Shown: positions 29,535 through 64,000 of the stretch, one piece after another
Position numbering within the stretch: position 1 is the stretch's first letter
Layout of the letters: the number at the start of each line of letters is the position of its first letter
Source: Bacteroidota bacterium
GTDB lineage: Bacteria > Bacteroidota > Bacteroidia > Flavobacteriales > Weeksellaceae
Length of the DNA: 64,000 bases
Assembly (NCBI GenBank): GCA_018266955.1
Contig: JAFDZI010000031.1
Coordinates: 1-64,000, forward strand
Direction of reading: 5' to 3'
Translations under genes and position numbers: made by a program
Notes under the pieces: generated by a model
What the model was told of the DNA's origin: nothing
What the model saw: only the letters and a program-made list of their open reading frames with translations
Databases searched by the model: none

Positions 29535-29539
29535 ATTAA

Positions 29540-32541: not shown

Positions 32542-32674
32542 TTTAGTTGGATGTTATTTTTTACTTGATATTTTATAAATACAATTAATTCCAAATTCAA
32601 TAAGGTAATCGCACAAATTTAATTCAAATTTTGCGTTTATTATATAGCAATAGTTTAAAATACATTTTCAAATA

Positions 32675-32701
32675 CAAAAAAGCAGGTAAATACTACCTGC
32701 T
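32675..32701 (-). terminator. Rho-independent terminator of the recombinase gene
   Basis: AGCAGGTA (32681-32688) pairs with TACCTGCT (32694-32701); on the minus strand a run of six Ts follows. Confidence 0.8.
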
Positions 32702-32728
32702 AATATTATTTAGGAAATTTTGAAATAC

Positions 32729-34225: not shown

Positions 34226-34371
34226 TTCTTCTTCATTTTTTGTTGATAACATTCATATTCAATCAACGCCCAAACCCGTAATTTTTGGGCAATCCTTGCC
34301 CATTCCATTTCGGAGTATTTCGGCGTATTGTCTTGATTTTTAGGGGCTTTTGGGTTCGATATTGATTTCAT
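34222..34371 (-). CDS. Small protein upstream of the recombinase
   Basis: A 49-residue reading frame (MKSISNPKAPKNQDNTPKYS, then EMEWARIAQKLRVWALIEYE). Its TGA overlaps the recombinase ATG as ATGA, the usual mark of translational coupling. It may be an accessory or directionality protein, but there is no recognisable family. The right-hand 12-bp repeat lies inside its first codons. Confidence 0.5.
   Translation of the reverse strand: MKSISNPKAPKNQDNTPKYSEMEWARIAQKLRVWALIEYECYQQKMKKK
34353..34364 (+). repeat. Right 12-bp direct repeat, candidate att site
   Basis: GGTTCGATATTG, identical to 26991-27002, immediately upstream of the recombinase operon, where large serine recombinases often have their att site. 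Confidence 0.4.
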
Positions 34372-42500: not shown

Positions 42501-42952
42501 TAATCAAAACAATAATTGATGATTTTAATAATGATTTCGCCAAAGGTACTTTTTTCTATTATAAAGGGTTAATGAAATTAAGTTTTCACAATGATTTTTA
42601 TTGGAAAAATGAAGTTCAACACATTATCAGAAAATGGAGAAAATATGACAGGCGCATAATTACTAACCTCTTATATAGCCATCTTAGGTATTTTGATGTC
42701 ATTAAACGTTTATGTTTGCATATTCTAATTGGTTATAGAAGAGAAATATGTAAAATCTCTTTTAGTGAATATAGTTCGAAAGAGTATGGAGGTCATGTTA
42801 AAATTGCTTTTGGACACCCCGATTTAAGAACGCAAGCTAAACAAATAGCATTTTTAATATTCTCATCACAGAATATTAAAGCACCTGAATGTATCAAAGA
42901 AATTTCCCAACAAATCGTAGAAAACGACATCTATCCCGAATGGAAAATCTAA
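39569..42952 (+). CDS. Large STAND-type P-loop NTPase
   Basis: A 1127-residue protein. A helical N-terminal region of ~240 residues lacks a recognised effector motif. It is followed by a NACHT/STAND-like NTPase with Walker A GIVHGTGGSGKST (about 243-255) and Walker B YLIVIEDWYR (about 298), then a long C-terminal helical region with repeating W-K-x-Y/N units (NNWKKY, VEWKKREY, INWKETSH, NNWMKIN) that look like degenerate repeats used as a sensor. This layout is typical of anti-phage STAND proteins such as Avs. It has no in-frame TGA across 1127 codons, so it is standard code. Confidence 0.7.
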   Translation: MGLDEIKKDEIRLIIKEKYQSASKWSETDYINLEKVFEKKLRNIYLEAQKIYYDVIENIQADDLRTEITALKKTLKKTYNSTKYKSFFDDLTIDGFTLTDKIEDLKADDRSVESFLNNGDIKGSTKDFYAVCIGRKGWKDFTSEINNNLENEYLNIPVSSFIDDPRQLKIAGAIIINQPFIESIKTLHFSMAEFYTAIQSENGLCQFYGIANHLDIERRYYRKLEQAVITSLNQKREYKICGIVHGTGGSGKSTVLRRLCVDIQKNENVTVVWITDVMQFFQYSIPTIKQDLETNNEKKYLIVIEDWYRMFHNDSEIGSELLKQLHKHNNVRIVIGDRTTVGKPYEYYGSDYNLLLSSNENREIIEQIIKKHPVWQEASDRLFESLKNDETTLFLLLFILARISQENSGNTSDNLSDPLVVFKNIIKSDLNFIAKQEEESYKGLAKALYYWACIYVEYKVLISYETFLKIADHYNGKKTSEIRDLFSLWNADEDILDRLKIYVNKSENGQIQFNHDILAEAISNINIDGWKKFGTKIKLDLLDVITEKGDDISASQFLYFMMFKDQNIFLLNREKKIFYIVNLIKKGNRHALYLSRLLEIIRTEKEQNQFAELLWEKEIYSSSFWRNFLSKTSNKEYWINKIFRFENVGKVDPATIKATFYYKYSEPLLKNYLEHFFEENNWKKYPINLIDIFNFFPDENIVQSIIKEILYDVEWKKREYYVISRALSTCNDAMLSQRFSDNILKNKNWLDYHPFLIATAIRYSSIEVQQNFIKSIFKKNFVEINIELLYESLYYSDDNLRRKFALKFLRDINWKETSHVIVPLAIKELSNNEKQNLFKGVLTSNNWMKINYTIIDFCLKDCENEIIKNQFLFKVLNSPFSKEIFETFFVALTHSKDEILKKDWCDNFLMKSACLNDHLQRGIIYKSLEISKDKKTALYYLKDWTENEFRYNVMDNMFLICLSCFENEINLPDEVKLIIKTIIDDFNNDFAKGTFFYYKGLMKLSFHNDFYWKNEVQHIIRKWRKYDRRIITNLLYSHLRYFDVIKRLCLHILIGYRREICKISFSEYSSKEYGGHVKIAFGHPDLRTQAKQIAFLIFSSQNIKAPECIKEISQQIVENDIYPEWKI

Positions 42953-44300: not shown

Positions 44301-44330
44301 AACCTATGAATTTATGTATATCGAAAAATA

Positions 44331-45092
44331 TCAATCATAATAGGTAATCTTCCTTATACTTTTCGAATATTTTTTTCCGTTTTTGAATACCATTTTCTGT
44401 ATCCAATTTCCAGATGAGTCATAGAAATATTCGTAGGTAAATTCGTTCTCTGATTTTTTTAGACCATTCGAGAAAAATTCGATGGTAGTGTTATCGTTAA
44501 GTTCTGTTTGTGTTAGTATGCTTCCATTTTCATAGTAAGTATAGGTAAATTCATACTTTTTGCTTATTTCTCCTTTTTTATAGTTGGTTTGCGAAATAAC
44601 GTTTCCATGGTCGTCATATACAAATTCTGTTACTCGACTTTCTCCGTTCTTTTCTCCGAAATATTTTATAAGAAGATCATCTTTCAGAACAGCTGTAAAA
44701 GATTTGTTGGACTTCTTTCCATCATCCGTAATATCTGTGCTTATAAAAACTGAATCGTTACTGTATCTGAATGTCATTATGCTTTCGGTAACGAGTCTGT
44801 TTTTATCAAAATTCCGAAACCATACTTTCTCCTGCCTATCCTGTGAATCATACGAAAATGCTGTGCTAGATTTTCTGTCTGCACTAATTTCTTCTTTCTT
44901 CAAAATTTTCCCTTTCAGACTGAATTCCAATATTGTGGTTTCTCTATTTTTTTTCTTTTTGGCAACGTAGTTTTCCTCAATTAATTTTACCCTTCCCTGC
45001 AAAAGAAAATCTTTCCAATTCTCGGGTTGATTGAGTTGAGCTTGAGAAAAAGCAAAGAATATTAGAAAAGAGACAGTGAAAAATAATCTCAT
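44331..45092 (-). CDS. Secreted YD-repeat-like protein
   Basis: A 253-residue protein with signal peptide (cleavage near FSQA, residue 18) and repeated Y-D-x-x-G-N/D motifs (FSYDSQDRQEK, FVYDDHGNVISQ, YFYDSSGNWIQK), the pattern of RHS/YD beta-repeats. Single small repeat protein, not a full toxin. Last gene of a short minus-strand group; ends in TGA. Confidence 0.65.
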   Translation of the reverse strand: MRLFFTVSFLIFFAFSQAQLNQPENWKDFLLQGRVKLIEENYVAKKKKNRETTILEFSLKGKILKKEEISADRKSSTAFSYDSQDRQEKVWFRNFDKNRLVTESIMTFRYSNDSVFISTDITDDGKKSNKSFTAVLKDDLLIKYFGEKNGESRVTEFVYDDHGNVISQTNYKKGEISKKYEFTYTYYENGSILTQTELNDNTTIEFFSNGLKKSENEFTYEYFYDSSGNWIQKMVFKNGKKYSKSIRKITYYD

Positions 45093-45103
45093 AGATGGAG
45101 TTT

Positions 45104-45709
45104 TTAATTGTTAAACTTGGAAATTAATTCAATACTTTTTTGTATTTCTTCGGGAGTTAGATAATTTTTTCTTTTATAATTTTTGTATTCTTCCGAGGCG
45201 TTAGAATGATTTAAAACAAAATCTGACCAAGTCTTTAAATAAAGTCCCAAACCTCTTTGTATGGTTAATTGGTCTATAAATGTTTCGTAAGATCTGATAT
45301 CTCCTTTGGTTAAATAGGTTCTTCCAATTTTCATTAATTTAAAAAAAGATTTATTTTCGTAATCTAGAATATGAGCGAACTCATGACCAAACAAACCAAT
45401 TTTTGCATCTAAAGGAACTTCGGAAACGAGAATTCCAAAATTATTTTCAATAGTTGTGTCAACAAATATTTTATATTTTCTTTTTTTAGAAAATAAAAAA
45501 CCAATAACAGGTCTTGTTTCCATGGTGGTTTTTGTATTTGCATAGATCACTTCAATATCTATATTTTTTAGCTCTGGGAAATATTGAAGCGCAATGTAAG
45601 CAGCTTCTTTTAAATTGTTAGGGATAATCAGTTTATCATAAGAAGATAATTTTTCTTGACCATAAAAATTGGTATTGATTAAAAATAATGCGAGCAAAAT
45701 AATTTTCAT
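45104..45709 (-). CDS. Secreted HExxH metallopeptidase-like protein
   Basis: A 201-residue exported protein (signal peptide ends near FYGQ, about residue 17) with zinc-peptidase motif GHEFAHILDYEN (about 109). No other catalytic landmark. Its ATG overlaps the stop of the upstream symporter-like gene, so they are co-translated. Confidence 0.65.
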   Translation of the reverse strand: MKIILLALFLINTNFYGQEKLSSYDKLIIPNNLKEAAYIALQYFPELKNIDIEVIYANTKTTMETRPVIGFLFSKKRKYKIFVDTTIENNFGILVSEVPLDAKIGLFGHEFAHILDYENKSFFKLMKIGRTYLTKGDIRSYETFIDQLTIQRGLGLYLKTWSDFVLNHSNASEEYKNYKRKNYLTPEEIQKSIELISKFNN

Positions 45710-46569
45710 TTAGTTTGTAATTTTGAGATAATGAAACAGAATAATAAGGCTGTCCAAAATGAAAACATCGCATACACTAAAGATACTTTCCCAAATTGTT
45801 CATTATGAAGTAATGTTCCTGAAATAAGAAATGCCATAGTGGTATTGTGAACGGCACTTTCTACAGAAAGAGAAATCTCATTCTTTACTCCGAGTTTGAA
45901 CAATTTGGACATTAAAAATCCAGTTGAGAAGCATACTACATTTAAAATTAATGCGAAAGGGAGTATTTCGAAAATTTCTGTATCGGTTATTCCTGCTTTG
46001 CCATTATCTCCAAGAAATTTGAGCAAAAAAACGAATCCTAAAAGAATCATAAGAACAGGTTTTGCATACTTCCCGATTTTTTCAGCAAGGGATTTATTTT
46101 TTGTTCTTAGCAAGATACCAAGAGAAGCTGGTATAGCGGTCAGAACAAAAATTTCTACCATAGTATCTTTAAAAGGGAGATGAAATTCTGTGCTACTACC
46201 ATAATAAATATGTAGTGCAAAGTTGACAATTAGTGGTATGGTAAAAATTGTTAAAATAGCATTGATTGTTGTAAGGATAATGGAAAGAGCGGTATTCCCT
46301 TTGAAAAGATAGGTAATAAATCCTGCTGTGGTTCCTCCTGGGCTGGTTGCCAAAATAATCATTCCTATTTTGATGTAATTAGGGGTATTTATAATACTGC
46401 ATATTATAAAAGCAATTGATGGTAACAGAATCATTTGCGAAAACAAAGCAACAAGTAATGCCTTAGGCGATGACAATACATTAGCTGTATCTTTCCAATT
46501 AAGAGAAACGCCAATACCAAACATAATCAACACCAAAACTGAAGCAACAAGTAGGTCAATTATTCCCAT
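45706..46569 (-). CDS. Bile acid:sodium symporter family protein
   Basis: A 287-residue membrane protein with about nine helices. The segment ATSPGGTTAGFITYLFKGN (about 73) matches the BASS/SBF motif PGG near the sodium-binding crossover. It ends at TGA that overlaps the next ATG (ATGA), showing UGA used as a stop in the accessory region. Substrate unknown. Confidence 0.8.
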   Translation of the reverse strand: MGIIDLLVASVLVLIMFGIGVSLNWKDTANVLSSPKALLVALFSQMILLPSIAFIICSIINTPNYIKIGMIILATSPGGTTAGFITYLFKGNTALSIILTTINAILTIFTIPLIVNFALHIYYGSSTEFHLPFKDTMVEIFVLTAIPASLGILLRTKNKSLAEKIGKYAKPVLMILLGFVFLLKFLGDNGKAGITDTEIFEILPFALILNVVCFSTGFLMSKLFKLGVKNEISLSVESAVHNTTMAFLISGTLLHNEQFGKVSLVYAMFSFWTALLFCFIISKLQTK

Positions 46570-46581
46570 ATAACTATGAAT

Positions 46582-46614
46582 AAAAAAAGGATTGATGGAA
46601 TTTCAATCCTTTTT
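46582..46614 (-). terminator. Rho-independent terminator
   Basis: AAAAGGATTGA (46585-46595) pairs with TCAATCCTTTT (46603-46613); T run on the minus strand, downstream of the 46632 gene. Confidence 0.8.
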
Positions 46615-46631
46615 ATAAGATGATTTTAAAT

Positions 46632-47069
46632 TTAAAATGAGCAATCCCTTGAACATCCAGATTTGAATCCTCCACTATCATTTATTTTTAACCATTCTTT
46701 GGCTCCATTGGAATTAATAATGAGTTTACCTTGGATCCAATAATGTGTACCAGTTAATGAACCATACCAACCAATAACCATAGGAACGGTAAAAGCTCCA
46801 GTGGTTGTATTTTGTCTTACGTTCAAATAATCTACTTGAGAATAGACATTTTTACCACCCCAAGTTGAGCAGCAATTCATGAGTCGGTTGGCTACCGTGA
46901 GCCCCACATCGTCAATATCTTTTTTCAATTGTACTTCCTTGTCGAGATTTACTACAGAGCCTTCGCCACCGCCAGTTCCTCCTGAAGCGCCTGGAAGTCT
47001 TGTTTGTGAATAAAACATTATTGAGACAAGTAAAAATAATACTGATAAAGTTTTTGTTTTGAACATCAT
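46632..47069 (-). CDS. Small secreted protein, function unknown
   Basis: A 145-residue protein with signal peptide (ends near FYSQ, about residue 22), a Gly-rich segment (GASGGTGGGEGS) and a Cys-containing C terminus (GCSRDCSF). No family recognised. Confidence 0.6.
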   Translation of the reverse strand: MMFKTKTLSVLFLLVSIMFYSQTRLPGASGGTGGGEGSVVNLDKEVQLKKDIDDVGLTVANRLMNCCSTWGGKNVYSQVDYLNVRQNTTTGAFTVPMVIGWYGSLTGTHYWIQGKLIINSNGAKEWLKINDSGGFKSGCSRDCSF

Positions 47070-47197: not shown

Positions 47198-47578
47198 ATG
47201 ATATTGGGAAATAAAGTAAAAAGGATTAGAGAACTAAAAAATTATTCGCAAAAGTACTTGGCAGATAGAATGGATATTAGTCAGGCTGCTTATAGTAAGT
47301 TGGAGAGTGGGGAAACTAAAATTTCTGATGAAAAGCTCTCTCAGATAGCAGAAATTCTGGAGGTGAAACCTGAAGACATAAGAGAATTTGACAGCCAAAA
47401 ATATTTTAATAGTTTTAACAATGTGACGGGTGATAAAAATGGAAGCTTCATTATTGAGATTGAAGATACTGAACTGATCAAAAAACTTTATGAAGACAAA
47501 ATCACTTTATTAGAAGAGTTAATGAGTCAACAGAAAAAAGAACTTGAAAAATACAGATCAAAATATGGAGAGCTTTAA
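47198..47578 (+). CDS. XRE-family transcriptional regulator
   Basis: A 126-residue regulator. The N-terminal helix-turn-helix (about 8-62; KVKRIRELKNYSQKYLADRM ... YSKLESGETKIS) is followed by a C-terminal coiled coil (LYEDKITLLEELMSQQ). Convergent with acpS (5-base gap). Probably autoregulates through the palindrome upstream. Confidence 0.85.
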   Translation: MILGNKVKRIRELKNYSQKYLADRMDISQAAYSKLESGETKISDEKLSQIAEILEVKPEDIREFDSQKYFNSFNNVTGDKNGSFIIEIEDTELIKKLYEDKITLLEELMSQQKKELEKYRSKYGEL

Positions 47579-52705: not shown

Positions 52706-52871
52706 AATCAAAATTTTTTCTATTTTTTTTTTCATTATCAAATTAGAGTAAATGTAATTTGAGAGTGTATAGCTGTTTAGCTAGAAAATATTATTGTCAA
52801 TTCAAAATGGTAAGGCAAAAAAATAATTTACAAAAAATCCTCAAAAAGTTGGCTCTTTACCAAAAAGTTTT

Positions 52872-53723
52872 TTAGTACATATTTACTTTCTCCCCGTCAA
52901 ACAGCCACCAATCCTCAAAAACATTTTGTTTAATCTCCTCTAAAGATTTAAATAAGAAGTGAAATTTCGCTTCTGTAAAACGTTCGTCTTCAAGAAGTCT
53001 CTTCATCGCCATTTGCTTATACACCTCGAGTTCGAAGATACAGAGAATACGGCTTCCATAATCTAGCCCAAACATTCTGCTCGGTTGCCCTACTGACAAT
53101 GCCCTCAAATGATGAAATAAAGACTTATGAACACGACTTGTATCATCTCCGTTATACATTTCAATGGCATACAACTCTTTTCTATTCGGTGTTTGAAGCA
53201 TACAAAGTGCATCAGCAATCAAATAATCGTTTTCAGAGATTTGAATGAACGATTCCGCTTTGTAACCCTTCTTCTTTCCCGTAGAAACCTTATCAAAATA
53301 GGTCAAGAATAGTAGCATTTCACAATCATCAATTTTAGAAATTCCTTTGTGTAAAGCGATTTGCACATTAATCGTGTTCATTCTATGGAAGTAATCCTTT
53401 TGATAAAATTGACCTTCATTTTTCGGAAACCTGACAACCTCTTCTCTCAAATAATCTTTAACAATTTCAGCACCATGAGCTTTTAAAAAATGTACATTTT
53501 CGAGTTTCCCTATTGCAGGATGAACTCCGAATGCAATAGAACCCACTAACGGATCTTTCCGAAGTCTGAGTTCTGCAATTTGCTTGTTGAGATTCGCTCT
53601 GTCAGACATAATTCCGAGACCGAGCAACTGCCCTGCTGTTAAATATTTGTAACGAGCCAAAGCTAAAAGGATTTTTTCCTGTGAGGGAGAAAGTGTTTGA
53701 AAGAATAATCTTTTAGTAACCAT
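52872..53723 (-). CDS. Replication-relaxation family protein
   Basis: A 283-residue protein with an N-terminal winged helix (QEKILLALARYKYLTAGQLL) and a C-terminal domain with IADALCML and ELYAIEMYNGDD, resembling the D...ExD/E pattern of plasmid replication-relaxation/mobilisation proteins. Lies next to the TraG-like ATPase on the same strand, fitting a mobilisation or replication role. Confidence 0.7.
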   Translation of the reverse strand: MVTKRLFFQTLSPSQEKILLALARYKYLTAGQLLGLGIMSDRANLNKQIAELRLRKDPLVGSIAFGVHPAIGKLENVHFLKAHGAEIVKDYLREEVVRFPKNEGQFYQKDYFHRMNTINVQIALHKGISKIDDCEMLLFLTYFDKVSTGKKKGYKAESFIQISENDYLIADALCMLQTPNRKELYAIEMYNGDDTSRVHKSLFHHLRALSVGQPSRMFGLDYGSRILCIFELEVYKQMAMKRLLEDERFTEAKFHFLFKSLEEIKQNVFEDWWLFDGEKVNMY

Positions 53724-53788
53724 TTTTTTTTGAGTTTTAAAAAATTAAAGAATTGGCGAAATGCCATCATTTTTATAAGAGGAAAACA

Positions 53789-55699
53789 TTAGAGATGAAA
53801 CTTAGGCTTAATACTTCCGCTGGACTCTGTGGAATTTTGAGGTACGGATTCAGAATTTTCTTTTGCTGGAAGAATTGTAGCTTCGGAATCCGATGCCGGA
53901 TTTACAGTTTCATTAGTTGTATCTGCTGAAGTCGATTTGGCTTTTGAAGGAATCAAAGTTGGCGCATGAACTGGATTTGATGTAGGTTCATGCGGCGGAT
54001 TCTGACTTTTATTTTGAAACTGCGTTTGTGTTTGAATTGGATTTACATTGATGATGTCTCTGTAAATTTCCGATTCAGACAACAAATAGGCTTTTAGTTT
54101 TTTCAGTTCTTCTTTGTTACAAAAGTATCTTTTCTGCTGTCTAATTAGAAAATCGGGACTTTTAATTTTTATGGCCGGAAAATGATCGTACTTTAAGTAG
54201 AACTCATAAGGTAACAAACTCTGCATTGCTGAATAAGAAACTCCAAAATCCCCTGCCAATTCTTTAAGTGCAGGCAAGCCGTTGATTCCTGCTAATTTAA
54301 CAGCTGAGTTATTCAAAACTGAATTCTTTAATGATAATGGGATTTGACCGACACTTTGTGTTCCAACAATCAAACGCAATTTGTACTTCCTGGCCTCAGA
54401 AAATATGGTTTGAATACTTCCGCTTTCTGTCGTGAAATTGTGAAATTCATCGATAAACAGATAACAGGGCTTTCTTGAATGTTCGGATTCGAACGCCCTC
54501 TGAAATACAATGCTCAGAATGGTTGCGGAAACAAATCTCCCGAGTGCTCTGCTCGTATCTTCTCCCAATTTTCCTTTGGATAAATTAAACAGGATTATCC
54601 TGCCTTCCTGCATTCCTTTCTTTAGGTCGATATTGCTTTTTCCGTTCATCATGTGGTAGAACATCATATTGTTTTGGAGGTGTTGCAATCTTGTATAGAT
54701 TGCCAGTTTGGTAGGAGCATATTTTTTACTAAGGAATGCTGTTTCAAAAAACTGGCGGTAGACCTGAAATGAAGATTTTTTGCCCAATTCCACCCATTTT
54801 GCATTTTGGGTGTCATCCATAAATATTTGCAAGTCGGATAGCCCACATCCTCCTCTTTCAAGCAAAACTGCTAAACACGGTTTCAGCAGCGCTTCCATTT
54901 GAAGCGACATTCCTGCTTCGGGAATTAATTCCGAAAACGCTTTGGCGAATTGCTGGGACATCACATCAATTAAAAACGGCTCGGAGACTCTCCGCCAAAA
55001 TGGGTTGATGCAGGGAATTTTTTCATTTTCCAATTGCGGATCGATGTACCAAACACGGTCGGGCTTTTGAAGATTGATACGGAATCCTAATAAGCTCTCG
55101 GATAGGTCTCCATGAGGATCCAAAAGAATTATTGAGTGTTGCTGTTTCAATTGGGATTGATGCTGAATTTGGTAAGCAATCGCTTTCATAAATTCCGTCT
55201 TTCCGGAACCTGTCCTGCCGCTAATAAAGCAATGCCTGTCTAAAGCGGAAACGGGAAATGGGACAGGCTTTGGAGCAAAAAATAATGCGTGTAGCGAAGG
55301 TAGACAAAGTGAAAGAAGTTTTTGATAGTCGTGTTCATCATCGCTGGTAAAAGAAGATAAAATTTTCGGGTGTTTCAATAAAAGATTCCAATATTCCAAA
55401 GCAGGCGAAACGCATACTGCCCTCTCCAATTTTTCTTTGCTTGTCGCTTTCTTGGTTCTCATTTCTTCAAATTTCTTGAAGGTCAGAAATCGTTTTTGAA
55501 GTTCTTTGCGGTAATGAATTGAATTTCTATCCAGTCGGGAGAGGTTTTTATCGATTGCTTTTATTCGTTCTGAAATTAAAGCATCCCGACCCGAAGGATG
55601 TCCGGCAAGTAAATAACTTCCTGCAAGTAGATAAGGTTCTTGGTTTCTGATCTTCCATAGAAAGGAAGTTTTATTCCAGAATTGAATTGTTGAATTCAT
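53789..55699 (-). CDS. TraG/VirD4-like conjugative coupling ATPase
   Basis: A 636-residue P-loop ATPase with Walker A ISGRTGSGKTEFMKA (about 160) and Walker B CYLFIDEFHNF (about 412), then GTQSVGQIP, as in DUF87/VirD4/TraG coupling proteins. The N-terminal part (about 1-140) has no obvious membrane helices; the last ~80 residues are a Pro/Ser/Thr-rich disordered tail. It probably feeds plasmid DNA to a type IV secretion channel encoded elsewhere. Standard code throughout. Confidence 0.8.
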   Translation of the reverse strand: MNSTIQFWNKTSFLWKIRNQEPYLLAGSYLLAGHPSGRDALISERIKAIDKNLSRLDRNSIHYRKELQKRFLTFKKFEEMRTKKATSKEKLERAVCVSPALEYWNLLLKHPKILSSFTSDDEHDYQKLLSLCLPSLHALFFAPKPVPFPVSALDRHCFISGRTGSGKTEFMKAIAYQIQHQSQLKQQHSIILLDPHGDLSESLLGFRINLQKPDRVWYIDPQLENEKIPCINPFWRRVSEPFLIDVMSQQFAKAFSELIPEAGMSLQMEALLKPCLAVLLERGGCGLSDLQIFMDDTQNAKWVELGKKSSFQVYRQFFETAFLSKKYAPTKLAIYTRLQHLQNNMMFYHMMNGKSNIDLKKGMQEGRIILFNLSKGKLGEDTSRALGRFVSATILSIVFQRAFESEHSRKPCYLFIDEFHNFTTESGSIQTIFSEARKYKLRLIVGTQSVGQIPLSLKNSVLNNSAVKLAGINGLPALKELAGDFGVSYSAMQSLLPYEFYLKYDHFPAIKIKSPDFLIRQQKRYFCNKEELKKLKAYLLSESEIYRDIINVNPIQTQTQFQNKSQNPPHEPTSNPVHAPTLIPSKAKSTSADTTNETVNPASDSEATILPAKENSESVPQNSTESSGSIKPKFHL

Positions 55700-56742
55700 G
55701 ATAAAATAATTTTTGTGTTTGAGTTTCAGTTTGAGTTTGAATTTTCAGATTAAATTTTTAAAGAATTCAGGTTTGAATTTTAAAAAATTGAGTGGTATTG
55801 CTTAACAAATTGCCTGACTCGGCAGAAGAAATAAAACAGAATAGAGATGCATTTGTTTTTTTGAATTAAAACTTGGCTTAAAAAAGCATGGTTTTGTAAC
55901 GGAAATAAAGAGAAGAATTCTTGGCTTTTGATTGAATTTCCGAGAATGGGTTGTTAAAATATATCGGAACTGTTTCTCACAAAAGTGATGGTGCTACTTA
56001 TGGATTTTTTATGTAAAGTCAAGTTCTTTCGATTAAGGTTTGTCGAGTGTCTATAAAATGTCAATATACTTTAGAATACCTTATTGAGAACCTTTTAGAC
56101 TACCTTTTTAGCAACCTCCAAAGGAAAGCGGAAATCGCCCTGTTTACCGAGCTTTTAACTGCAATTTCTATGCCATAATATCTTCCTTTTTCCACTTTCC
56201 ATTATTACCATCTTCCTATCTATAAAAAGTAAAAATGTAAAGTCAAACTGCATCAACTTCTCTTGCAAGTCAACCAAAAATCCATACAAGCACCATCGCC
56301 GGCAAACATACCAAATCAATTAAAACAAAAATGTAAAGACACAAAAAATCTATCAATGTATCAATCTACCAATTTAACAAAAACAAAAATTCAAAAAATT
56401 AAAATCCTAAAACAAAACGAAAAACAATCAACCAAAAATCACAAACAATGTAAAACAAACTATCAAAAAAAATCAATTCAAAGTCTATCAAAACACAAAA
56501 AATTAACAAAACCTATTCAAAATCAAAACTCAAAAACAGTCAACTGAAAAAATTCTTAACACAAAAAATCTCTAAACAAAATGAAACAATCCAAAACGAC
56601 AAACAACCATCAACAAATTAAAACCCCTTATAACAAAGAATGAAAAAATCAACAACGTAACAATCAACGAGTGACAAAAAAAATTAACAACAATCAAGAA
56701 AAACAAAATCTAAAAATTTAAAAATCCTAAAACAAAAACAAA
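55700..56742. other. Gene-free stretch with G-poor leader
   Basis: About 1 kb with no credible gene. From about 56230 to 56740 the plus strand is almost devoid of G and rich in A and C; AATCCTAAAACAAAA occurs twice (near 56400 and 56726). An open frame at 56263-56547 reflects composition only. It directly precedes eight plus-strand plasmid genes and probably holds their promoter and a long unstructured leader. Confidence 0.6.
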
Positions 56743-56976
56743 ATGGAAAACAAAATCAACAAAACCGTCAATCTAGACTTGACGACTATCGACAGTAACA
56801 TCTTCGCCATTTTTGGAGCGTTCTCCAGACAGGCAAGACGTGAGAAGTGGACGCAACAAGAAATTGATGCCGTCCTCGAAGAAGCCAAAAGCGGAGATTA
56901 TGATCATGCGATTGCTACCATCTGCGAGTATTGTGACCCTGAAGACGATTCTAACTCTGAAAACGAAGAAGACTAA
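56743..56976 (+). CDS. Small plasmid protein, function unknown
   Basis: A 77-residue acidic protein (FAIFGAFSRQARREKWTQQE near the middle, ending in a Glu/Asp tail). Its TAA overlaps the ATG of the next gene (TAATG). It begins a compact plus-strand run of small genes. Confidence 0.7.
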   Translation: MENKINKTVNLDLTTIDSNIFAIFGAFSRQARREKWTQQEIDAVLEEAKSGDYDHAIATICEYCDPEDDSNSENEED

Positions 56977-57581
56977 TGGGAACAAGAAATTTAACCGTGG
57001 TGGTACAAAACCAAGAAGTGAAAGTTGCTCAATATGGGCAGTATGACGGATTCCCCGATTCCCTTGGAGTAAAATTATTAAAATTCTTTAGCAATCCTGA
57101 GAACACCGAAAAATTAAAAGAAATCCTTCCGAAAGTACGTCTTTGGAATGAAAAAGACCAAAAGCTACAGGACGAATTTCTGGAATCAATCGGTTGTACC
57201 AACGGAATACTCAACGACAAGCAAAAGGAACAATTCAAAATGAAGTATCCTTTTCGCTATCGTGAACGCTACGGAAAATTAACCGAAGGGCAAATCTTGG
57301 AAATATTGCTGGAGTTTCATCATCTTGATGAAATCGCAACCATCGATGCTTACGATTTTGCTTCCGACAGTCTGTTCTGTGAATGGGCGTATGTGATTGA
57401 CTACGATAAAAATGCTTTTGAAGTGTACAAAGGTCTCAACACCTCGGGAATTTCAGAAGAAGACCGCTTCTTTCCGCTTTATGACGGAGAAAACGATTAT
57501 TATCCTGTCAAAATCATTGCCTCATTTCCTTTGGATCAACTTCCCGATGAAAACGAATTTCTTTTTCAATGCTCAACGTAG
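56976..57581 (+). CDS. Conserved mobile-element protein (MGTRNLT family)
   Basis: A 201-residue protein starting MGTRNLTVVVQNQEVKVAQY. Proteins with this opening and a following QYDGFPDSLG are widespread on phages and plasmids, without known function. Arg is encoded only by CGT/CGC here. Ends in TAG. Confidence 0.75.
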   Translation: MGTRNLTVVVQNQEVKVAQYGQYDGFPDSLGVKLLKFFSNPENTEKLKEILPKVRLWNEKDQKLQDEFLESIGCTNGILNDKQKEQFKMKYPFRYRERYGKLTEGQILEILLEFHHLDEIATIDAYDFASDSLFCEWAYVIDYDKNAFEVYKGLNTSGISEEDRFFPLYDGENDYYPVKIIASFPLDQLPDENEFLFQCST

Positions 57582-57660
57582 TAAGCAATATGCGGTAGGC
57601 TTTAAGCTCTCAATTTTAATGTCTGCTATCTAGTGTCTAACCTCTAAAATCTAAAAAACA

Positions 57661-58245
57661 ATGAACAAAAACAAAAACCGCCTACTGGTAATGTGCTTTA
57701 TGAAAATGCTTCAGCAAAGAATCGAAAGAGACAAAGTGGAAACCCTAAGTCCTATATTCGGTAACATCTTAAGTAAAGAAGAGCTTCAAAACATTTTGAA
57801 GTGGCTGTACTTGGATAAAGTGCCTGAACACTACGATTTGAAAACGATGGACAGTCAGGATTTGCTTGAAGCCATCGGAGATGACATTCATATCCTTTCG
57901 TATTCCATAGAAAAATGGAAAAAGGAACTGGAAGAGAAAATCACGCCACAGAAAGTCTATGAGGTACTTTGCCAGCTCCAACTCGAAACCCATTATCTGA
58001 TGACCAAAATTTTGGCAGATTGGGACGAGTACGACCACAGCAACTTCAAGGCACTCTGCCGAAAGGCGGGAACTCCTCAACCCTTATTTGCTGTATTTGA
58101 ATCTTCTGTACTAGAAGAGGACAAATATATTTCTGTTCCTCTTTCTAAATATTATGCTACCGAGTGGGAAGCAACATCTAAAAAATCACTTCTCATTTCG
58201 GAAGAACAGTTTGAGGAACATCAGCTCCAGATCCTAAGCCTGTAA
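57661..58245 (+). CDS. Plasmid protein A of a paralogous pair
   Basis: A 194-residue soluble protein. Residues ~35-90 (KEELQNILKWLYLDKVPEHY ... LLEAIGDDIHILSYSIEKW) match residues of the protein encoded at 59477 (KELIEII ... LLQLIGDDFKIISYVMSRW), so the two are paralogues. Unknown function. Confidence 0.7.
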   Translation: MNKNKNRLLVMCFMKMLQQRIERDKVETLSPIFGNILSKEELQNILKWLYLDKVPEHYDLKTMDSQDLLEAIGDDIHILSYSIEKWKKELEEKITPQKVYEVLCQLQLETHYLMTKILADWDEYDHSNFKALCRKAGTPQPLFAVFESSVLEEDKYISVPLSKYYATEWEATSKKSLLISEEQFEEHQLQILSL

Positions 58246-58275
58246 TCTTTTATCCAATTATTTTATAAAACAAAA

Positions 58276-58710
58276 ATGAAACAATCAATCTTAGAATTTT
58301 ATTCTAATCTGGACAAAGCCAGAGACAGAGCTTTATGGCTGGAGTTTGAGTACAGAAATATTCCCAAGCATTTTATGGTATTTGATGGGCCTGAAAACAA
58401 TTTCGCCGTTGCCGATTTAGAAACGGCAGAAGAAATGGAAATGACGCATCATTACTACTCTCTTCCTGAAAATTATCAACATCTTTCTTACGGAGATTTG
58501 AAAGGAATTTCGGGCGACCCAGAGATGTTAGGACACTGGGAAAATATCCTTGGAAAGTTCTCGGTAATGGAAGGCGAATTACTTCGCTTTATCCTGAAAT
58601 ATCAGGTTCCTCTAGATAAAATTATTCGTTACGAACTTGGGTGTAGAGGATTTGACCATAACAATCAATGGATTGGATTTAATGAATCTGAAAAACTATG
58701 GCAACAATAA
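58276..58710 (+). CDS. Uncharacterised plasmid protein
   Basis: A 144-residue acidic protein containing MVFDGPENNFAVADLETAEE and a C-terminal CRGFDHNNQWIGF. Small acidic plasmid proteins near a leading region are often anti-restriction proteins, but I cannot show that here. Confidence 0.65.
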   Translation: MKQSILEFYSNLDKARDRALWLEFEYRNIPKHFMVFDGPENNFAVADLETAEEMEMTHHYYSLPENYQHLSYGDLKGISGDPEMLGHWENILGKFSVMEGELLRFILKYQVPLDKIIRYELGCRGFDHNNQWIGFNESEKLWQQ

Positions 58711-58715
58711 ATAGT

Positions 58716-58943
58716 ATGGATACAGAAAACAATAAGACAACTCTGGAGGAAGTCTATGTGATTGCTCTTGCCGAAAATGACGGGGAATTTGATTGGGTTT
58801 ATATTCTTCCAAAACCCTATTATCTTACCGAAACAGAAGCCTTGGAAATCAGAAATTCATTAATCGAAAATGAAGAATTTATTACCGAAAGTAACTGTAT
58901 CGTAAAAAAACTATACAGAGTAAAACCCATACAAGAAGAATAA
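58716..58943 (+). CDS. Small plasmid protein B1 (paralogue of 59171 gene)
   Basis: A 75-residue protein; ATG at 58716, five bases after the previous stop, is preferred over the ATG at 58698, which would overlap. The P-K-P-Y-Y-L-T ... E-I-R-N-S-L-I-E-N pattern recurs as P-K-P-F-Y-Q-T ... N-I-R-R-T-L-I-E-N in the gene at 59171. Confidence 0.65.
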   Translation: MDTENNKTTLEEVYVIALAENDGEFDWVYILPKPYYLTETEALEIRNSLIENEEFITESNCIVKKLYRVKPIQEE

Positions 58944-58961
58944 GAAACAATCAAAAACAAA

Positions 58962-59174
58962 ATGGAAAACAAAAAATGGGTAAAGCAAGTGATGATTATT
59001 GATGATAAACTGCATCAAAGCTATCTGCAAACTTTTGTGGAAGAACCATTGAACTTTGAGGAGTTCGTCAATTTTGAATTGGGAAACCTCTTTGATGAAG
59101 ACAGGAAGATTGAACAGATTATCCCGAATGAAAATGCCACTCAATTTGTCATCATTTATTCTATAAAGCTATGA
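58962..59174 (+). CDS. Small plasmid protein, function unknown
   Basis: A 70-residue acidic protein. It ends in TGA TGA TAA; under UGA=Gly it would gain only two glycines. Its stop overlaps the ATG at 59171 (ATGA). Confidence 0.6.
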   Translation: MENKKWVKQVMIIDDKLHQSYLQTFVEEPLNFEEFVNFELGNLFDEDRKIEQIIPNENATQFVIIYSIKL

Positions 59175-59392
59175 TGATAAAAGGAAACTATGTGTTTATT
59201 TATGTTCACTTTGTCATTCTCCAAAAGGCTCCTCAATTGGGAATGGATTACATTGTATGTCATCCCAAACCTTTTTATCAGACCTATAGAATGGCAAGAA
59301 ACATCAGAAGAACACTCATTGAAAACGGAAGTCTTTCCGAAGAAAACTCAAAAATTGGTGGATTTCAAATCCTTGCGATTAACCTTAATTGA
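59171..59392 (+). CDS. Small plasmid protein B2 (paralogue of 58716 gene)
   Basis: A 73-residue protein similar to the gene at 58716 over its central 45 residues. It ends in TGA at about the same length as its paralogue, so UGA is probably a real stop here. Confidence 0.6.
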   Translation: MMIKGNYVFIYVHFVILQKAPQLGMDYIVCHPKPFYQTYRMARNIRRTLIENGSLSEENSKIGGFQILAINLN

Positions 59393-59476
59393 ATTGCGTT
59401 AAGCCTTAAGCAATAGGCTTTAAGCTCTATTGTCTAATATCTAACCTCTTAAGTCTAACCTCTAATATCTAAATTT

Positions 59477-60079
59477 ATGAACGAAAACAGAACGGCACTC
59501 TTGAAAATATTCTCAGCAGTGCTAAAGGACAGAGTAAAATCTGAACCTCAGTATCAATCCATCAGTACGGAAATGGTCAAACATTTTTCCCGAAAAGAAT
59601 TGATTGAAATCATTACCCACAACTTCGAGGGCGAAGTTCCATCGGAATTTAACCTCGTGGAAATGGAAAATAATGAACTTTTGCAATTGATTGGAGATGA
59701 TTTCAAAATCATTTCTTATGTGATGAGCCGTTGGAGCAAGGAAGTTTCACTACTTCCAACCCTCCAAGAATGGATGCATTCTAAAGTTCATTCATCTCCT
59801 GAAAAGGAAATAGAAGAAAACTTGGAATCAAATTCATCAGAAACTTCATCAGAAAATTTGGAGAATCCTCCAACAAATGAAATGATTTCTGAACATCCAG
59901 ATTCTACTTCTGAAAATTCTGATAAAACCAATTCGGAATCTCCTAAACCTTCGGATGTATCATCTGAAGTTAAAAAATTTGAAGAGAAACTGAATTTCAA
60001 TCCTGATTCTAAACCTGCTTCAGAAAAACCGCATTTCGGTAGGAAGCAGGAGGACAAGAAAACTGAAAAAAGCAAGTAA
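59477..60079 (+). CDS. Plasmid protein A2 with acidic Ser/Pro-rich tail
   Basis: A 200-residue protein. The N-terminal ~95 residues are paralogous to the protein at 57661; the C-terminal half is disordered, rich in Ser, Glu and Pro (ENLESNSSETSSENLENPP) and ends in a Lys-rich patch. Uses CGA for Arg at a position where its paralogue has Glu/Lys, consistent with the standard code. Preceded by the flavobacterial-style intergenic phrase tctaacctctaatatctaaa. Confidence 0.68.
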   Translation: MNENRTALLKIFSAVLKDRVKSEPQYQSISTEMVKHFSRKELIEIITHNFEGEVPSEFNLVEMENNELLQLIGDDFKIISYVMSRWSKEVSLLPTLQEWMHSKVHSSPEKEIEENLESNSSETSSENLENPPTNEMISEHPDSTSENSDKTNSESPKPSDVSSEVKKFEEKLNFNPDSKPASEKPHFGRKQEDKKTEKSK

Positions 60080-60134
60080 CGCCTTTGGTATTCAAAGGCT
60101 GGGAATGGTTTCCGTTCCAACAATGAACTCATGG

Positions 60135-60168
60135 AAATAGCCCAAGTTTTTTACTCGGGCTATTTTAT
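60135..60168 (+). terminator. Rho-independent terminator
   Basis: AAATAGCCC (60135-60143) pairs with GGGCTATTT (60157-60165), followed by T-rich sequence. It separates the standard-code genes from the recoded methylase. Confidence 0.8.
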
Positions 60169-60289
60169 TTTCTTAAGCAACACTCCCCTGCAATAGATAC
60201 ATTTACTTTATTTACAAAAAGTGAAAATGAGCCATTCCTCTGAAAATAAAATAATTACCAAAAACAAAACTCCCCTGCTCAAAGCAAAA

Positions 60290-61081
60290 ATGAAAACCCC
60301 GATTACGTATTACGGTGGGAAACAGAATTTAGTAAAAGAACTTCTTTGATTAATTCCTCCTCATAAAATCTATGTAGAACCTTATTTTTGAGGCGGAGCA
60401 CTGTTTCGGGCTAAAGAGCCTTCTTCTTCTGAAATTATCAATGACACCAACATGAATGTGGTTAATTTCTACGAAGTTTTGAAGAAAAACTACAAAGCAC
60501 TGCACGAAAAAATCGAAGCCACTCTTCACAGTAGGGAAACTTACAAAAAAGCGCTTTTCATTTACGAAACTCCCCGGCTTTTTGCGGACAATCCTGTAAT
60601 AAGAGCACGAGCTTTCTATGTATCCTGCAATCAATGATTTTGCAGTCGTGTTGGGAGTTGGTGATATGATAAGGGAAAAAGATGTGCTTCGGTTTTTCAG
60701 AATAAAATAGAAAACTTTAAAGAAGAAATGAGCATTCGTCTTTCTTACACGCAAATCGAACAAAACTCGGCTCATCTTGTCATTCAGTCGAGGGATCATG
60801 AACATGCCTTCTTTTACTGTGATCCTCCTTATATCGGGACGAATCAATGACATTATGGAGGTTATTACGAAGACGATTTCATCAGAGACCTCACGGTATT
60901 ATCACAAATCAAGTGAAAGTTTTTATTGAGCAATTTTCCATCTAAAATACTCGATAGGTTTGTAAAGGAGCATCAATGGTATGTAAAAACCTTTGACCAA
61001 CCTTTGTCAGCCTCTCACAACAGCAAGAAGAACTTAAACAAAAGAAAAACGGAAGTGTTGGTGGCGAATTATCCGATATAA
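60290..61081 (+). CDS. DNA adenine methylase (Dam type), UGA read as Gly
   Basis: A 263-residue D12-class methylase if six in-frame UGAs are decoded (60347, 60389, 60635, 60662, 60848, 60914). Motif I is TYYGGKQNLV, the catalytic motif CDPPYIG. The UGAs fall in KELL-G-LIPPH, EPYF-G-GGALF, CNQ-G-FCS, GSW-G-YDK, TNQ-G-HYGGY and QIK-G-KFLL; at least five of these are strongly conserved glycines. CGG at 60407 and 60575 and CGA at 60608 occur where relatives have Trp (VFWAKEP, PWLF, RAWAF). No other frame disruption and a TAA stop. An ATG at 60227 would add 21 residues. Confidence 0.85.
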
Positions 61082-61092
61082 TACCCCAACAG

Positions 61093-61153
61093 AGCCCCCA
61101 AACCCCCAAAGGGGGCTTATTGAATATTTTCCCCTTTTGGGGGACAGGGGGCT
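61093..61153. repeat. Long imperfect palindrome (AGCCCCC...GGGGGCT)
   Basis: AGCCCCCAAACCCCCAAAGG and a complementary arm ending CCCTTTTGGGGGACAGGGGGCT-like, separated by a short AT-rich loop. Palindromes of this wording are common between genes in Flavobacteriia and usually act as terminators. Here it lies between two recoded genes. Confidence 0.75.
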
Positions 61154-61177
61154 TTTACATTAAAAAACAAAAATGAA

Positions 61178-61324
61178 ATGAACACCTCAAAACCAAAATA
61201 CAACAATCAAAGAAAAAATGTCGTGATGCGTAAGATCAAACCAAGAATGAAACAGAGAGTTTTCAAAAACGAAGAAATCCCCATCCATAAAATCAGAAAA
61301 GATTACGAAAAATTTAAAGTATGA
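61178..61324 (+). CDS. Small basic protein
   Basis: A 48-residue Lys/Arg-rich protein (RKNVVMRKIKPRMKQRVF) with stop TGA at 61322 sharing bases with an ATG at 61321 (ATGA). If UGA were Gly it would continue for 13 codons to TAA. The ATG at 61173 is in another frame and would run through UGAs into the methylase downstream; I consider that reading less likely. Confidence 0.5.
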   Translation: MNTSKPKYNNQRKNVVMRKIKPRMKQRVFKNEEIPIHKIRKDYEKFKV

Positions 61325-62345
61325 CCGAAGCTTAAAGCATGATTACCCTCCTCCAAATAATCTAAAAGTATTCTGAGCCTTTGTTGGTGGTGGCGGTTCT
61401 ACAATGGGATACAAACTCGCAGGATTTCAACATTTGGGTGGTGTAGAAATAGATGGCAGAATGGCAAAAATTTACCAAACCAACCATTCCCCTGAACATT
61501 TTTATCATGAAGACATCAGAGATTTTAACCAAAGAACTGATTTACCAAAAGAACTCTACGAATTAGATATTTTGGATGGCTCTCCTCCTTGCAGTGCCTT
61601 CTCGATGTCCTGAAAACGTGAGGAATACCGGGGAAGAGAAAAAGTATTTAAAGAATGACAGAAAAAACAAATTTTGGATGAACTTGTGTTTATATTCTGT
61701 GATATGGTAGAAAAGCTTATGCCCAAAGTTGTTGTAATGGAAAATGTTCCGGGACTCGTTGCCGGAAGAGCAAAAAAATATGCCATTGAAGTCTATGAGA
61801 GACTTAATTTGCTATGATATCAAGTCCAAATCTTCAGACTCAATTCAGCTACAATGGGTGTTCCCCAAGCTCGTGAACGTATTTTCTTTATTGCAAGAAA
61901 AAAGAGCTTGGAGCTCCCCCAATTAATTTTGGACTTCAATGAATCCCCTGTATATTTTGGAACAATTGCCGACAGAAATTCTACCACCCATCCTCCGCTC
62001 CGACCTTCCATTGAAAAAAGACGACCGTTTGTAGAATACGGAGATCAGAATTTAAAGTTTGCCGATGCAAAATACAGAAATTTAAATACCTTCAATGCGT
62101 TCTTCAGTACCTATATTTTGTACGATGATATTGTTGCTCCTACATTGACTTCAAGTGGAGCATGAGTATATTACCCCGAAAAACGCAATCTTAATGATAC
62201 CGAATATATTCGTATGAGTAGTTTTCCAAACGATTTTGATTTTTGCAACATATCAACCCGTTATGTTTGCGGAATGAGCGTTCCTCCATTGATGACCGCT
62301 AGAATTGCAAATGAAATAAGAAAACAATGGTTTTCAATAATTTAG
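61321..62345 (+). CDS. DNA cytosine methylase (Dcm type), UGA read as Gly, frameshifted start
   Basis: A C5-methylase of ~340 residues if five UGAs are decoded (61374, 61611, 61656, 61815, 62163). Motif I is FVGGGGSTMGYKLAGF, PC motif DGSPPCSAFSMS, ENV motif VVMENVPGLV, then GVPQARERIFFI. UGAs give KVF-G-AF, SMS-G-KRE, FKE-G-QKK, NLL-G-YQV and SGA-G-VYY; SMSGKRE and FKEGQ are conserved glycines. CGG at 61629 lies in EEY-x-G, where Trp is typical. ATG at 61321 opens MTEA, but one base is missing near 61333 to reach the conserved frame. Ends in TAG. Confidence 0.75.
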
Positions 62346-62905
62346 CAATCTGAAATGTACCAATGTTTAATTGAAATACATATTCAAAAAATTGTTAAAC
62401 TGTTACATTATTCGATTGTTACATTAATTCATACTCCTCTCCTCTACAACATTAACAAGGCTTTTCACAGCCTTTATAAAGATTACATTCACCGAAAAAT
62501 AAGATAAATAATTGTTTTTCTGAAACAATCAACAAGGTGGTTGTCAAAGGTTGATACACTCCTCTGCCAAACCTTAACAAGGCATTGTCAAAGTCTGCCA
62601 CAACTTTATCAATCCCATGACAAACCTTCTACAATGAATGTCAAGGCATTGTTAAAGTAAATCACTTGAAAAAGCCTTTTCGATGCTTATAAATCCGTAA
62701 GGAATTAAAAAGGGATGTTATAACCTTTAACAATCCCCTGACAAATGTTTGAAGAAGTTTTGTAAAACCTATGACAAAGATTTAATCATCTATTGTCAAA
62801 CGTAGAGCAAAGTAACTAAAAACAAGCATTCAATTGATTGTATTCTGTATGATAACCAAAAGTTATCGTGAAAAAAGCGAGTATTTATCCTATAAAAATA
62901 ATTCT
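62346..62905. repeat. Cluster of TTGTCAAA / TTTGACAA-type repeats (centromere-like)
   Basis: A 560-base gene-free stretch with at least eight copies of a TTGTCAAA-like word in both orientations, for example TTGTCAAAG near 62541 and 62586, TTGTTAAAG near 62650, TTGTCAAAC near 62793, and TGACAAA near 62618, 62739 and 62772; several extend to CAAGGCATTGTCAAAG. It directly precedes the HTH protein gene. The pattern suggests a partition (parS-like) or operator region for that protein. Confidence 0.65.
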
Positions 62906-63427
62906 ATGGAAATTTCAAAATCAGAGGCAGAAAGACTGCTGGGTGTAAGTTCCACCACCTTGTATAATCGGGCAAACAAAATGAATATCAAATTCATCAA
63001 TAAAGTAGACTCCAAAGGAAAGAGCAGTTACCTTGCCCAATCCGATTTGGAGAAAATGGCAGAAGCAATGGGTAAGACATTGAAAACCGAATCCGCCCCT
63101 GAAAAAGAAAATCCGAAAACGGAAAGCAGAGGAGCAGAGGAGTGAGAAGCCCAAGAATTTGTACAGGAAAAATTTATGCTTCAACTCAAAATCAAGGAAC
63201 AGGAAGAGGAGATCAAGTCCAACAACCAAATCATTGAATTTTATAAAGAAAATAATTCGCAATTGCTGATGAACCAACAGGAAGCTAAAAATCAAATCAC
63301 TACTATGTACTGAGAAATGCTTGGAATTTCGAAAAAAGCCACGACCTACTATATTATCTCTATTGCCGTATCGGTTGTGTTACTCCTGTTTGTTGTTCTT
63401 GTTGCCACAGGAAACCTGAAATTTTAA
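62906..63427 (+). CDS. HTH, coiled-coil, membrane-tail protein (Par-like), UGA read as Gly
   Basis: A 173-residue protein if UGAs at 63143 and 63311 are decoded. N-terminal HTH (ISKSEAERLLGVSSTTLYN, about 3-60), central coiled coil (LQLKIKEQEEEIKSNNQ) and a C-terminal membrane helix (YYIISIAVSVVLLLFVVLVA). The layout recalls the single-protein plasmid partition protein Par of staphylococcal pSK1 (HTH plus coiled coil). UGAs fall at AEE-G-EAQEF and TMY-G-EMLG. CGG near 62968 (LYN-x-ANK) could be Trp or Arg. ATG at 62906 begins the HTH; other in-frame starts lie upstream. Confidence 0.65.
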
Positions 63428-63443
63428 AGCAGAGGAGTCTGCA

Positions 63444-63580
63444 ACCCTGAAAATGTAGCCGTTGATAACATTACAAATGATAGATTTGGATGGTAAAATG
63501 ATAAAAACCAAGCAAAAAAGCCAATTTTAAAATATAGAACAGTTCTAATAAAATCCACCCTAAAAATGTAGCCGTTCATA
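63444..63580 (+). repeat. 24-bp direct repeat pair
   Basis: ACCCTGAAAATGTAGCCGTT at 63444 (24 bases in all) recurs at 63557 with two mismatches. Between them and the iterons (63581-63793) the DNA is very AT-rich and gene-free, as expected of a DNA-unwinding region. Confidence 0.6.
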
Positions 63581-63793
63581 GCTAAAAGCCATAAACAGAA
63601 AGCTATGAGCTGATAAAAAAAACCTTTTCCCATAATTGCTTTTAGACTTTCCCCTATAAAAACAAACCTAAAAATTATACAACAAAAGTTTTATTTATCC
63701 CTGTTATAAGATGTTATATATTTTAAGTTCTTATATTGTTTATAGCCCGAAAGTTTGTTTATGACAAAGGATTTACGAAGCATTTGGTATCAA

Positions 63794-63940
63794 ATTCAGG
63801 GTTAAGCATACCAAAAACAGGGTAAAGTATAACCGACTTGGGGCGAAGTATACCATTTTCAGGGTGGAAAGGCTACTAAAACAAGGGATATTGGCTACTT
63901 ATTTGGGGCATATCATCAAATATAAAAAATTCAGGGTGCA
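63794..63940 (+). repeat. Iteron array, probable plasmid origin
   Basis: Seven units of the type TTCAGGGTNAAGNATACC with the GGG core at 63799, 63820, 63841, 63862, 63885, 63906 and 63934, that is 21-bp spacing for the first four and 21-28 after. Two-helical-turn spacing is typical of iterons bound by a Rep initiator. An ATG at 63980 (MKIKNIF) could start the rep gene, cut by the window edge. Confidence 0.72.
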
Positions 63941-64000
63941 AGACAAACAAGCGAAAGAAGTAGGAAACACGATCAGATAATGAAAATTAAAAATATTTTT

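Follow-up and report, generated by a model that had tools for sequence, protein, structure and literature searches.

The window, a stretch of 64,000 nucleotides of a Bacteroidota genome (GCA_018266955.1, contig JAFDZI010000031.1), carries near its right end a frame that the standard code breaks at two TGA codons. The original prediction read both as glycine, obtained one partition-like protein with DNA-binding, coiled-coil and membrane parts, and proposed that decoding of UGA would control plasmid maintenance, should the plasmid need the protein for its stable inheritance. To our knowledge, mobile elements normally keep to the genetic code of their carrier, unless they come with a suppressor tRNA. 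Carrier genomes are given below by our own numbers (G071, G499, etc.) where they need to be told apart. The features in and around the frame are:

62346..62905, no strand: intergenic region with TTGTYAAR repeats, possible binding sites
62906..63427, + strand: HTH / long-helix / membrane-segment protein (HTH protein), UGA-coded, two TGA
63143..63145, + strand: in-frame TGA, codon 80 of the HTH protein; also TGA in Chryseobacterium limigenitum
63311..63313, + strand: in-frame TGA, codon 136 of the HTH protein; GGT in C. limigenitum, GGA in G071

The predicted HTH protein and its upstream repeats

With TGA as glycine, 62906-63427 reads without interruption for 173 residues up to a TAA; the standard code leaves 79 residues, instead of the 80 given originally. 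The AlphaFold2 model (four-sequence input; mean pLDDT 80.4, pTM 0.32) places a winged helix-turn-helix within residues 1-56, a low-confidence linker at residues 62-79 and a single helix spanning 77-168; the hydrophobic C-terminus was called by eye as a putative membrane segment. Among Pfam families, HTH_17 matched with an E-value of 1.5e-4, yet under the family cut-off, and DUF536 was absent in a scan up to E 10. A PHROG of excisionases matched weakly (E 5e-5), and a sequence search of the PDB yielded no relative (best E 0.03, to unrelated molecules). In Foldseek searches with the predicted DNA-binding domain, RacA (5i44) was nearest (E 6.8e-3) and pSK1 Par on centromere DNA (8csh_A) was among the first matches (E 0.032); no match reached E 0.001. 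The best superposition was that on 8csh_A (TM-score 0.84 over the target, rmsd 1.4 A, 54 columns).

The domain is thus, by weak E-values and a good superposition on 8csh, a MerR-like winged HTH as in RacA and pSK1 Par, and the partition-like architecture that had been proposed is supported, with these two as the nearest folds. The likeness to RacA, pSK1 Par and RocS covers the predicted fold of the DNA-binding domain and the position of the gene beside rep, and would extend to the predicted long helix and the putative C-terminal membrane segment; unlike them, the HTH protein is UGA-coded. In the passages cited, Par and RocS are said to carry DUF536 (PMC11500499), which was not found in the HTH protein. 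The helix of RocS is amphipathic, that of the HTH protein, by eye, hydrophobic. As modeled, the protein may work like RacA and pSK1 Par in layout; membership of the Par/RocS group is not claimed.

The motif TTGTYAAR occurs seven times within the 560 nt upstream of the gene (62346-62905), against a mean of 0.42 in shuffled sequence and with seven reached in 0 of 300 shuffles, a statistic that is descriptive because the motif was chosen after inspection of the window. It is found four times each in C. limigenitum and G499 and 0 or 1 times in six other copies. Since the 79-residue truncated product would retain the DNA-binding domain, a repressor-like role in a standard-code cell is possible.

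UGA as glycine in the element genes

Three neighboring genes share the coding of the HTH gene:

60221..61081, + strand: Dam-type adenine methyltransferase (MethyltransfD12, 6.8e-25), 6 TGA
61173..62345, + strand: cytosine-5 methyltransferase, Dcm (DNA_methylase, 9.1e-44), 8 TGA
contig C24 64055-65344, just past the window: Rep_3 initiator (Rep3_N, E 1.4e-36; Rep3_C, E 7e-15), 1 TGA

All nine copies of the HTH gene, including that of the window, carry one to three in-frame TGAs inside the aligned region, and homologues stopping at the first UGA, which would have marked the downstream part as a separate or absent gene, were not seen among them. Compared with C. limigenitum, codon 80 is TGA/TGA, codon 136 TGA/GGT and codon 68 GAA/TGA. 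The expectation of glycine at both UGA positions was borne out in part: at codon 136, C. limigenitum has GGT and G071 has GGA, but the two copies from metagenome-assembled genomes (MAGs) encode Thr and Ala; codon 80 is again TGA in C. limigenitum and falls into an alignment gap in the three distant copies.

Under genetic code 25, dN/dS between the window and C. limigenitum was 0.11 for Dam, 0.11 for Dcm, 0.13 for HTH and 0.08 for Rep, at dS values of 0.5-1.4. In standard-code homologues, 29 of 79 residues at the TGA columns of Dcm, Dam and Rep are glycine (15/31, 11/24 and 3/24, respectively), and four of the columns show glycine in every such homologue. Tryptophan accounts for 0 of the 79, which rules out UGA as tryptophan. 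Between the Dam genes of the window and of the second copy in G543 (G543b; 62% identity, dS saturated) the TGA sites pair as TGA/TGA 0, TGA/GGN 10 and TGA/other 1 times, and GGN makes up 7 of 23 other codons at TGA columns in HTH and 12 of 24 in Rep. The signal is weaker in the distant HTH copies, the protein being variable and many TGA columns non-glycine elsewhere; taken alone, the HTH columns would be weak evidence.

Low dN/dS and TGA/GGN exchange together indicate that these sequences diverged while UGA was read as glycine; by these comparisons, UGA as glycine is shown to be held under purifying selection in the element genes, and code 25 applies to them only. The same two observations bear out the glycine reading of the HTH gene as one coherent protein (dN/dS 0.13 vs C. 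limigenitum), and rule out a separate downstream gene or decay of the reading frame. That the TGAs are mutations in dead genes, or belong to contaminating contigs, might be thought of because UGA is a stop codon in the host and two copies lie on metagenome-assembled contigs. We regard this as extremely improbable: the substitution pattern, with dN/dS near 0.1 and TGA/GGN exchange, already contradicts it, and copies are found on megabase-scale contigs of near-complete genomes. Contigs with copies include ones of 3.46 Mb, 866 kb, 797 kb and 462 kb.

Carriers, copies and the division of genes by code

Twelve copies of the element were found, in ten Bacteroidota genomes. Nine encode both HTH and Rep (those of the window, C. 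limigenitum, G499, two in G543, G567, G071 and two MAGs); the other three are of a second type and came to light when the coupling protein was used as query. The HTH protein or its profile matched in 2 of 99 relatives, in 1 of 395 genomes of the class and in 5 of 320 of the family; each count includes the own genome, the samples overlap, and G556, one of the five, is C. limigenitum (identical coordinates). A scan of genome contigs from 84,980 species with the Rep alignment gave at least 11 loci, the best among the matches listed being Chryseobacterium limigenitum SUR2 (92% identity), followed, again among those listed, by a Saprospiraceae MAG and a Tenacibaculum MAG; three of the 11 loci were read for TGA and the other eight for tRNAs only. 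Relatives of the HTH protein were not found in plasmid and viral collections. Relatives from a UGA=Gly genome were absent from the viral contig scans, and none was so titled among the at least 11 Rep loci listed for the 84,980 species.

Outside the family, Rep, Dcm and Dam have their nearest named relatives on Bacteroidota plasmids and phages and one Bacillus plasmid (for Dam, phages only were searched). Rep relatives occur on plasmids of Aureispira, Emticicia, Runella and Saprospira; like these Rep_3 plasmids of Bacteroidota the element encodes a Rep with Rep3_N and Rep3_C, but the four Reps read from them have no in-frame stop. Among other Rep matches in 295 class genomes, 11 of 12 are stop-free. 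The twelfth, a distant match at G368 C5 986707-987654 (L043), contains one TGA and two TAA and is probably a decayed gene, an intact one being present in the same genome.

The carriers look like standard-code bacteria. The window belongs to a 91-kb contig of a 2.45-Mb, 97%-complete draft genome, and the element lies within this contig with chromosome-type genes, judged by eye, on either side. Release factor RF2 scored above cut-off in 5 of 5 genomes tested (the G388 match contains one TAA). Neither the own genome nor C. limigenitum yielded a UCA anticodon in the Rfam tRNA search and ARAGORN (150 of 196 and 150 of 410 first-look candidates scored): the former has 36 tRNA matches, with the anticodon read in all, and the latter 56 above cut-off, of which 54 coincide with ARAGORN calls, none UCA, and two are degenerate matches in a tRNA array that ARAGORN does not call, one of them GUC by eye. 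ARAGORN found no tRNA(UCA) in the locus of any copy and Rfam no tRNA in 52800-64000; a suppressor tRNA on the element was therefore rejected. A search pattern for UCA tRNAs gave hits, relative to its reversed control, of 16/11, 18/13, 29/25, 14/16 and 17/12 in five genomes, which, taken as totals, are at about control level. The combination that marks a code 25 genome, tRNA-Gly(UCA) present and RF2 absent, was accordingly not found. Two side observations concern tRNAs. C. limigenitum has a 13-tRNA array (L150 260-2541; G387 C18 14660-16939), presumably phage-like, with degenerate tRNA-like sequences about 6 kb beyond it. In the own genome, one of the 36 matches, a tRNA-like gene with a 'tta' anticodon that looks degenerate, lies beside tRNA-Val genes at L162 209-287 (G000 C2 59909-59986).

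With RF2 present and no recognised tRNA(UCA), the Bacteroidota hosts should not make the UGA proteins. UGA decoding as a control of plasmid maintenance in this cell is hence not supported in the form proposed: the element is chromosomal here, the genome has RF2 and no recognised UGA-reading tRNA, and Rep, the two methyltransferases and, elsewhere, recombinases are coded alike. It is more likely that the code decides in which kind of cell the UGA genes work. The hosts might instead read the UGAs by an unrecognised or inducible suppressor, as a switched programme in a single host like that of recoded phages. Phages with such a split of genes by suppressor tRNAs are known, and as far as searched the copies are in Bacteroidota only; RF2 in all five genomes, the failure to find tRNA(UCA) either in the two genomes read or next to any copy, pattern hits near the reversed control and the lack of an Rfam tRNA in 52800-64000 make this quite improbable.

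The genes to the left of Dam are coded differently:

52872..53723, - strand: neighbor of the coupling protein, perhaps replication-relaxation-like but with no family match; without TGA here and UGA-coded in three other copies
53789..55699, - strand: coupling-protein-like ATPase, UGA-free here, UGA-coded in four other copies
56976..57581, + strand: UGA-free block gene 1
57661..58245, + strand: UGA-free block gene 2
58276..58710, + strand: UGA-free block gene 3
58698..58943, + strand: UGA-free block gene 4 (3 copies found)
59477..60079, + strand: UGA-free block gene 5

From 52872 to 60079 in-frame TGA is absent, the exception being a short and doubtful frame at 59171. Over the aligned regions, all 34 copies of Rep, HTH, Dam and Dcm contain TGA, at 142 of their 512 glycine codons, whereas the block genes (starting at 56976, 57661, 58276, 58698 and 59477) use it for 0 of 266 glycine codons in 40 copies (Fisher p 1.2e-29, with related copies counted as independent and the classes drawn after inspection). 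The element is thus not of the kind compatible with codes 11 and 25 by being TGA-free in every gene. The coupling-protein genes are all-or-none, with 0 TGA in eight copies and 5-9 in four, as is the neighbor (0 in eight, 3-5 in three); a histidine kinase (four copies) and a LytTR regulator (five copies) have 0. Altogether 20 recoded ORFs contain 116 TGA; that they lack TAA and TAG is a consequence of how the frames were drawn. Avoidance of TGA as terminator was considered as a sign of dual use and is uninformative (1 of 28 UGA-free genes vs 4 of 50 in the chromosomal background).

The window, C. limigenitum, G499 and the first G543 copy have the same gene order, as does G543b apart from one duplicated block gene; the order persists where the coupling protein shares about 45% identity with that of the window. 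In the second element type (C. limigenitum contig C34, G521 and G509) the coupling protein and its neighbor are also UGA-coded, a UGA-coded serine recombinase (6, 15 and 11 TGA) replaces HTH and Rep, Dcm occurs only in the C34 copy, and the block is still UGA-free. Of the parts expected of an integrative mobilisable or conjugative element, coupling-protein domains were found and serine recombinases occur in these three copies, whereas genes for a transfer channel were not identified. In G071 the island is flanked by tRNA-Leu and a 46-nt, 89% partial copy of it 24.7 kb apart, an imperfect match that would be as expected of integration.

Further genes were noted around the copies. UGA-free genes at 44304-47069 and 47198-47578 recur near other copies and may be recurrent cargo: the gene at 44304-45092 near C. 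limigenitum, G499, G521 and G509, a transporter-like gene at 45679-46656 near C. limigenitum, G499 and G509, and an XRE-type regulator near G521 and G509. The regions 27180-34303 and 39569-42952, which follow tRNA-His (26813), hold large ATPase-like and recombinase genes and resemble, by eye, a defence or mobile island. On contig C34 of the C. limigenitum isolate genome, a gene with 28 in-frame TGAs encodes a surface-like protein of 1204 residues that matches thrombospondin type 1 (L177 2972-6586, - strand). Secreted or pilin-like UGA-rich genes, one with DUF4215, belong to the Saprospiraceae MAG and C. limigenitum copies (L102 6610-7416 and 11946-12764, 22 and 13 TGA; L100 9625-10281, - strand, 14 TGA). 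Such cargo may resemble proteins of Absconditabacteria and Gracilibacteria.

Proposed passage between two kinds of cell

In an element confined to UGA=Gly cells, the block would gather UGA as Dam and Dcm do; confinement to standard-code cells would leave Dam, Dcm, HTH and Rep dead. As neither is observed, the simplest account would be that the element passes through both repeatedly. We therefore favor, as the probable explanation, a family of integrative plasmids that alternates between standard-code Bacteroidota (Chryseobacterium relatives and a few others) and a UGA=Gly cell, with its gene set split by code. One class, comprising the Rep_3 initiator, the HTH protein and the two methyltransferases, in some copies also a recombinase, the coupling protein and secreted proteins, uses UGA as an ordinary glycine codon; the other, the block of small genes and in most copies also the coupling protein and its neighbor, never does so. 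In the UGA=Gly cell all genes would be readable and the element would replicate and partition as a plasmid, the HTH protein tying plasmid DNA to the membrane. In the Bacteroidota cell RF2 would end the UGA genes early and replication and partition would be off; the element would ride in the chromosome with only its UGA-free genes at work. Taken jointly with this cycle, and with the same degree of belief, the HTH protein is best explained as a partition-type accessory protein of the family.

Several observations count against this explanation. RadC is UGA-coded in the Saprospiraceae copy and not in the Tenacibaculum copy; the recombinases of three copies are UGA-coded and would not account for integration in the standard-code cell; relatives from a UGA=Gly genome were not seen in the scans above; and the named relatives nearest to Rep, Dcm and Dam outside the family are of Bacteroidota, apart from one Bacillus plasmid. 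The plasmids of a UGA=Gly bacterium might instead be captured one way and stuck as dead ends in Bacteroidota chromosomes, the UGA-free genes being later additions or avoiding UGA for other reasons, e.g., expression level. The UGA-coded recombinases, which would function only in the other cell, fit such a capture, as do the secreted and pilin-like UGA-rich genes, each found in a single copy of the element (22, 14, 13 and 28 TGA). The UGA-free block, however, stays beside the UGA genes, in order and without UGA over a large divergence, and was not found elsewhere in 390 class genomes. Later additions are thus unlikely to explain the block, and we consider capture of this kind unlikely.

Under the alternation of cells, passage would run in both directions, and the second cell would, by elimination, be an Absconditabacterium or Gracilibacterium, since the bacterial cases of UGA as glycine reviewed in the sections cited of PMC8629427 are those groups. 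Contact with Bacteroidota is plausible: the portions consulted of two papers describe read coverage of Absconditabacteria correlated with that of Bacteroidetes (PMC8406219), and Gracilibacteria phages with non-CPR spacers of which 5 of 9 match Bacteroidetes arrays (PMC10746230). A further and rather doubtful possibility is that the element senses its host by the genetic code: an epibiont or predator with UGA=Gly, from the Absconditabacteria or Gracilibacteria, would deliver the element into its Bacteroidota partner in the manner of T-DNA, with the UGA genes locked to the donor and the UGA-free block as a payload that the partner expresses. If so, the coupling protein, existing in a version for each code, would allow transfer out of either kind of cell.

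Known systems share parts of this arrangement. Phages and prophages of Absconditabacteria and Gracilibacteria that use code 25 have many genes with in-frame UGA as glycine; as described in the cited parts of PMC10746230 and PMC13059738, they are found in UGA=Gly cells or assigned to them, and a tRNA-Gly(TCA) is carried by one, whereas the present elements are in standard-code genomes and none was found to carry this tRNA. Dual-code phages are likewise mobile elements fitted to both kinds of host, but according to PMC10746230 they avoid TGA throughout, while here one class of genes avoids it and the other uses it freely. Stop-recoding phages also have genes unreadable in the normal code of the host and bring a suppressor tRNA; on the present element, which is plasmid-like and integrated and has glycine as the residue, none was found. 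In one open library we found no report of an element with genes split between codes, nor of UGA=Gly genes in Bacteroidota chromosomes. The novelty claimed is the element split by code; the HTH protein alone would be a variant of the RacA/Par kind.

The element joins a gene set conserved for a code that its carriers apparently do not use with genes conserved for the standard code. UGA genes of this kind are broken or missed by standard annotation, in isolate genomes as well. If the explanation by two kinds of cell is true, it is the genetic code that determines where each gene functions, and the elements record at the molecular level that DNA has passed between UGA=Gly bacteria and Bacteroidota. 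The text cited describes the hosts of Absconditabacteria and Gracilibacteria as for the most part unknown (PMC8406219); on the same condition, the elements would name culturable candidate partners, Chryseobacterium among them.
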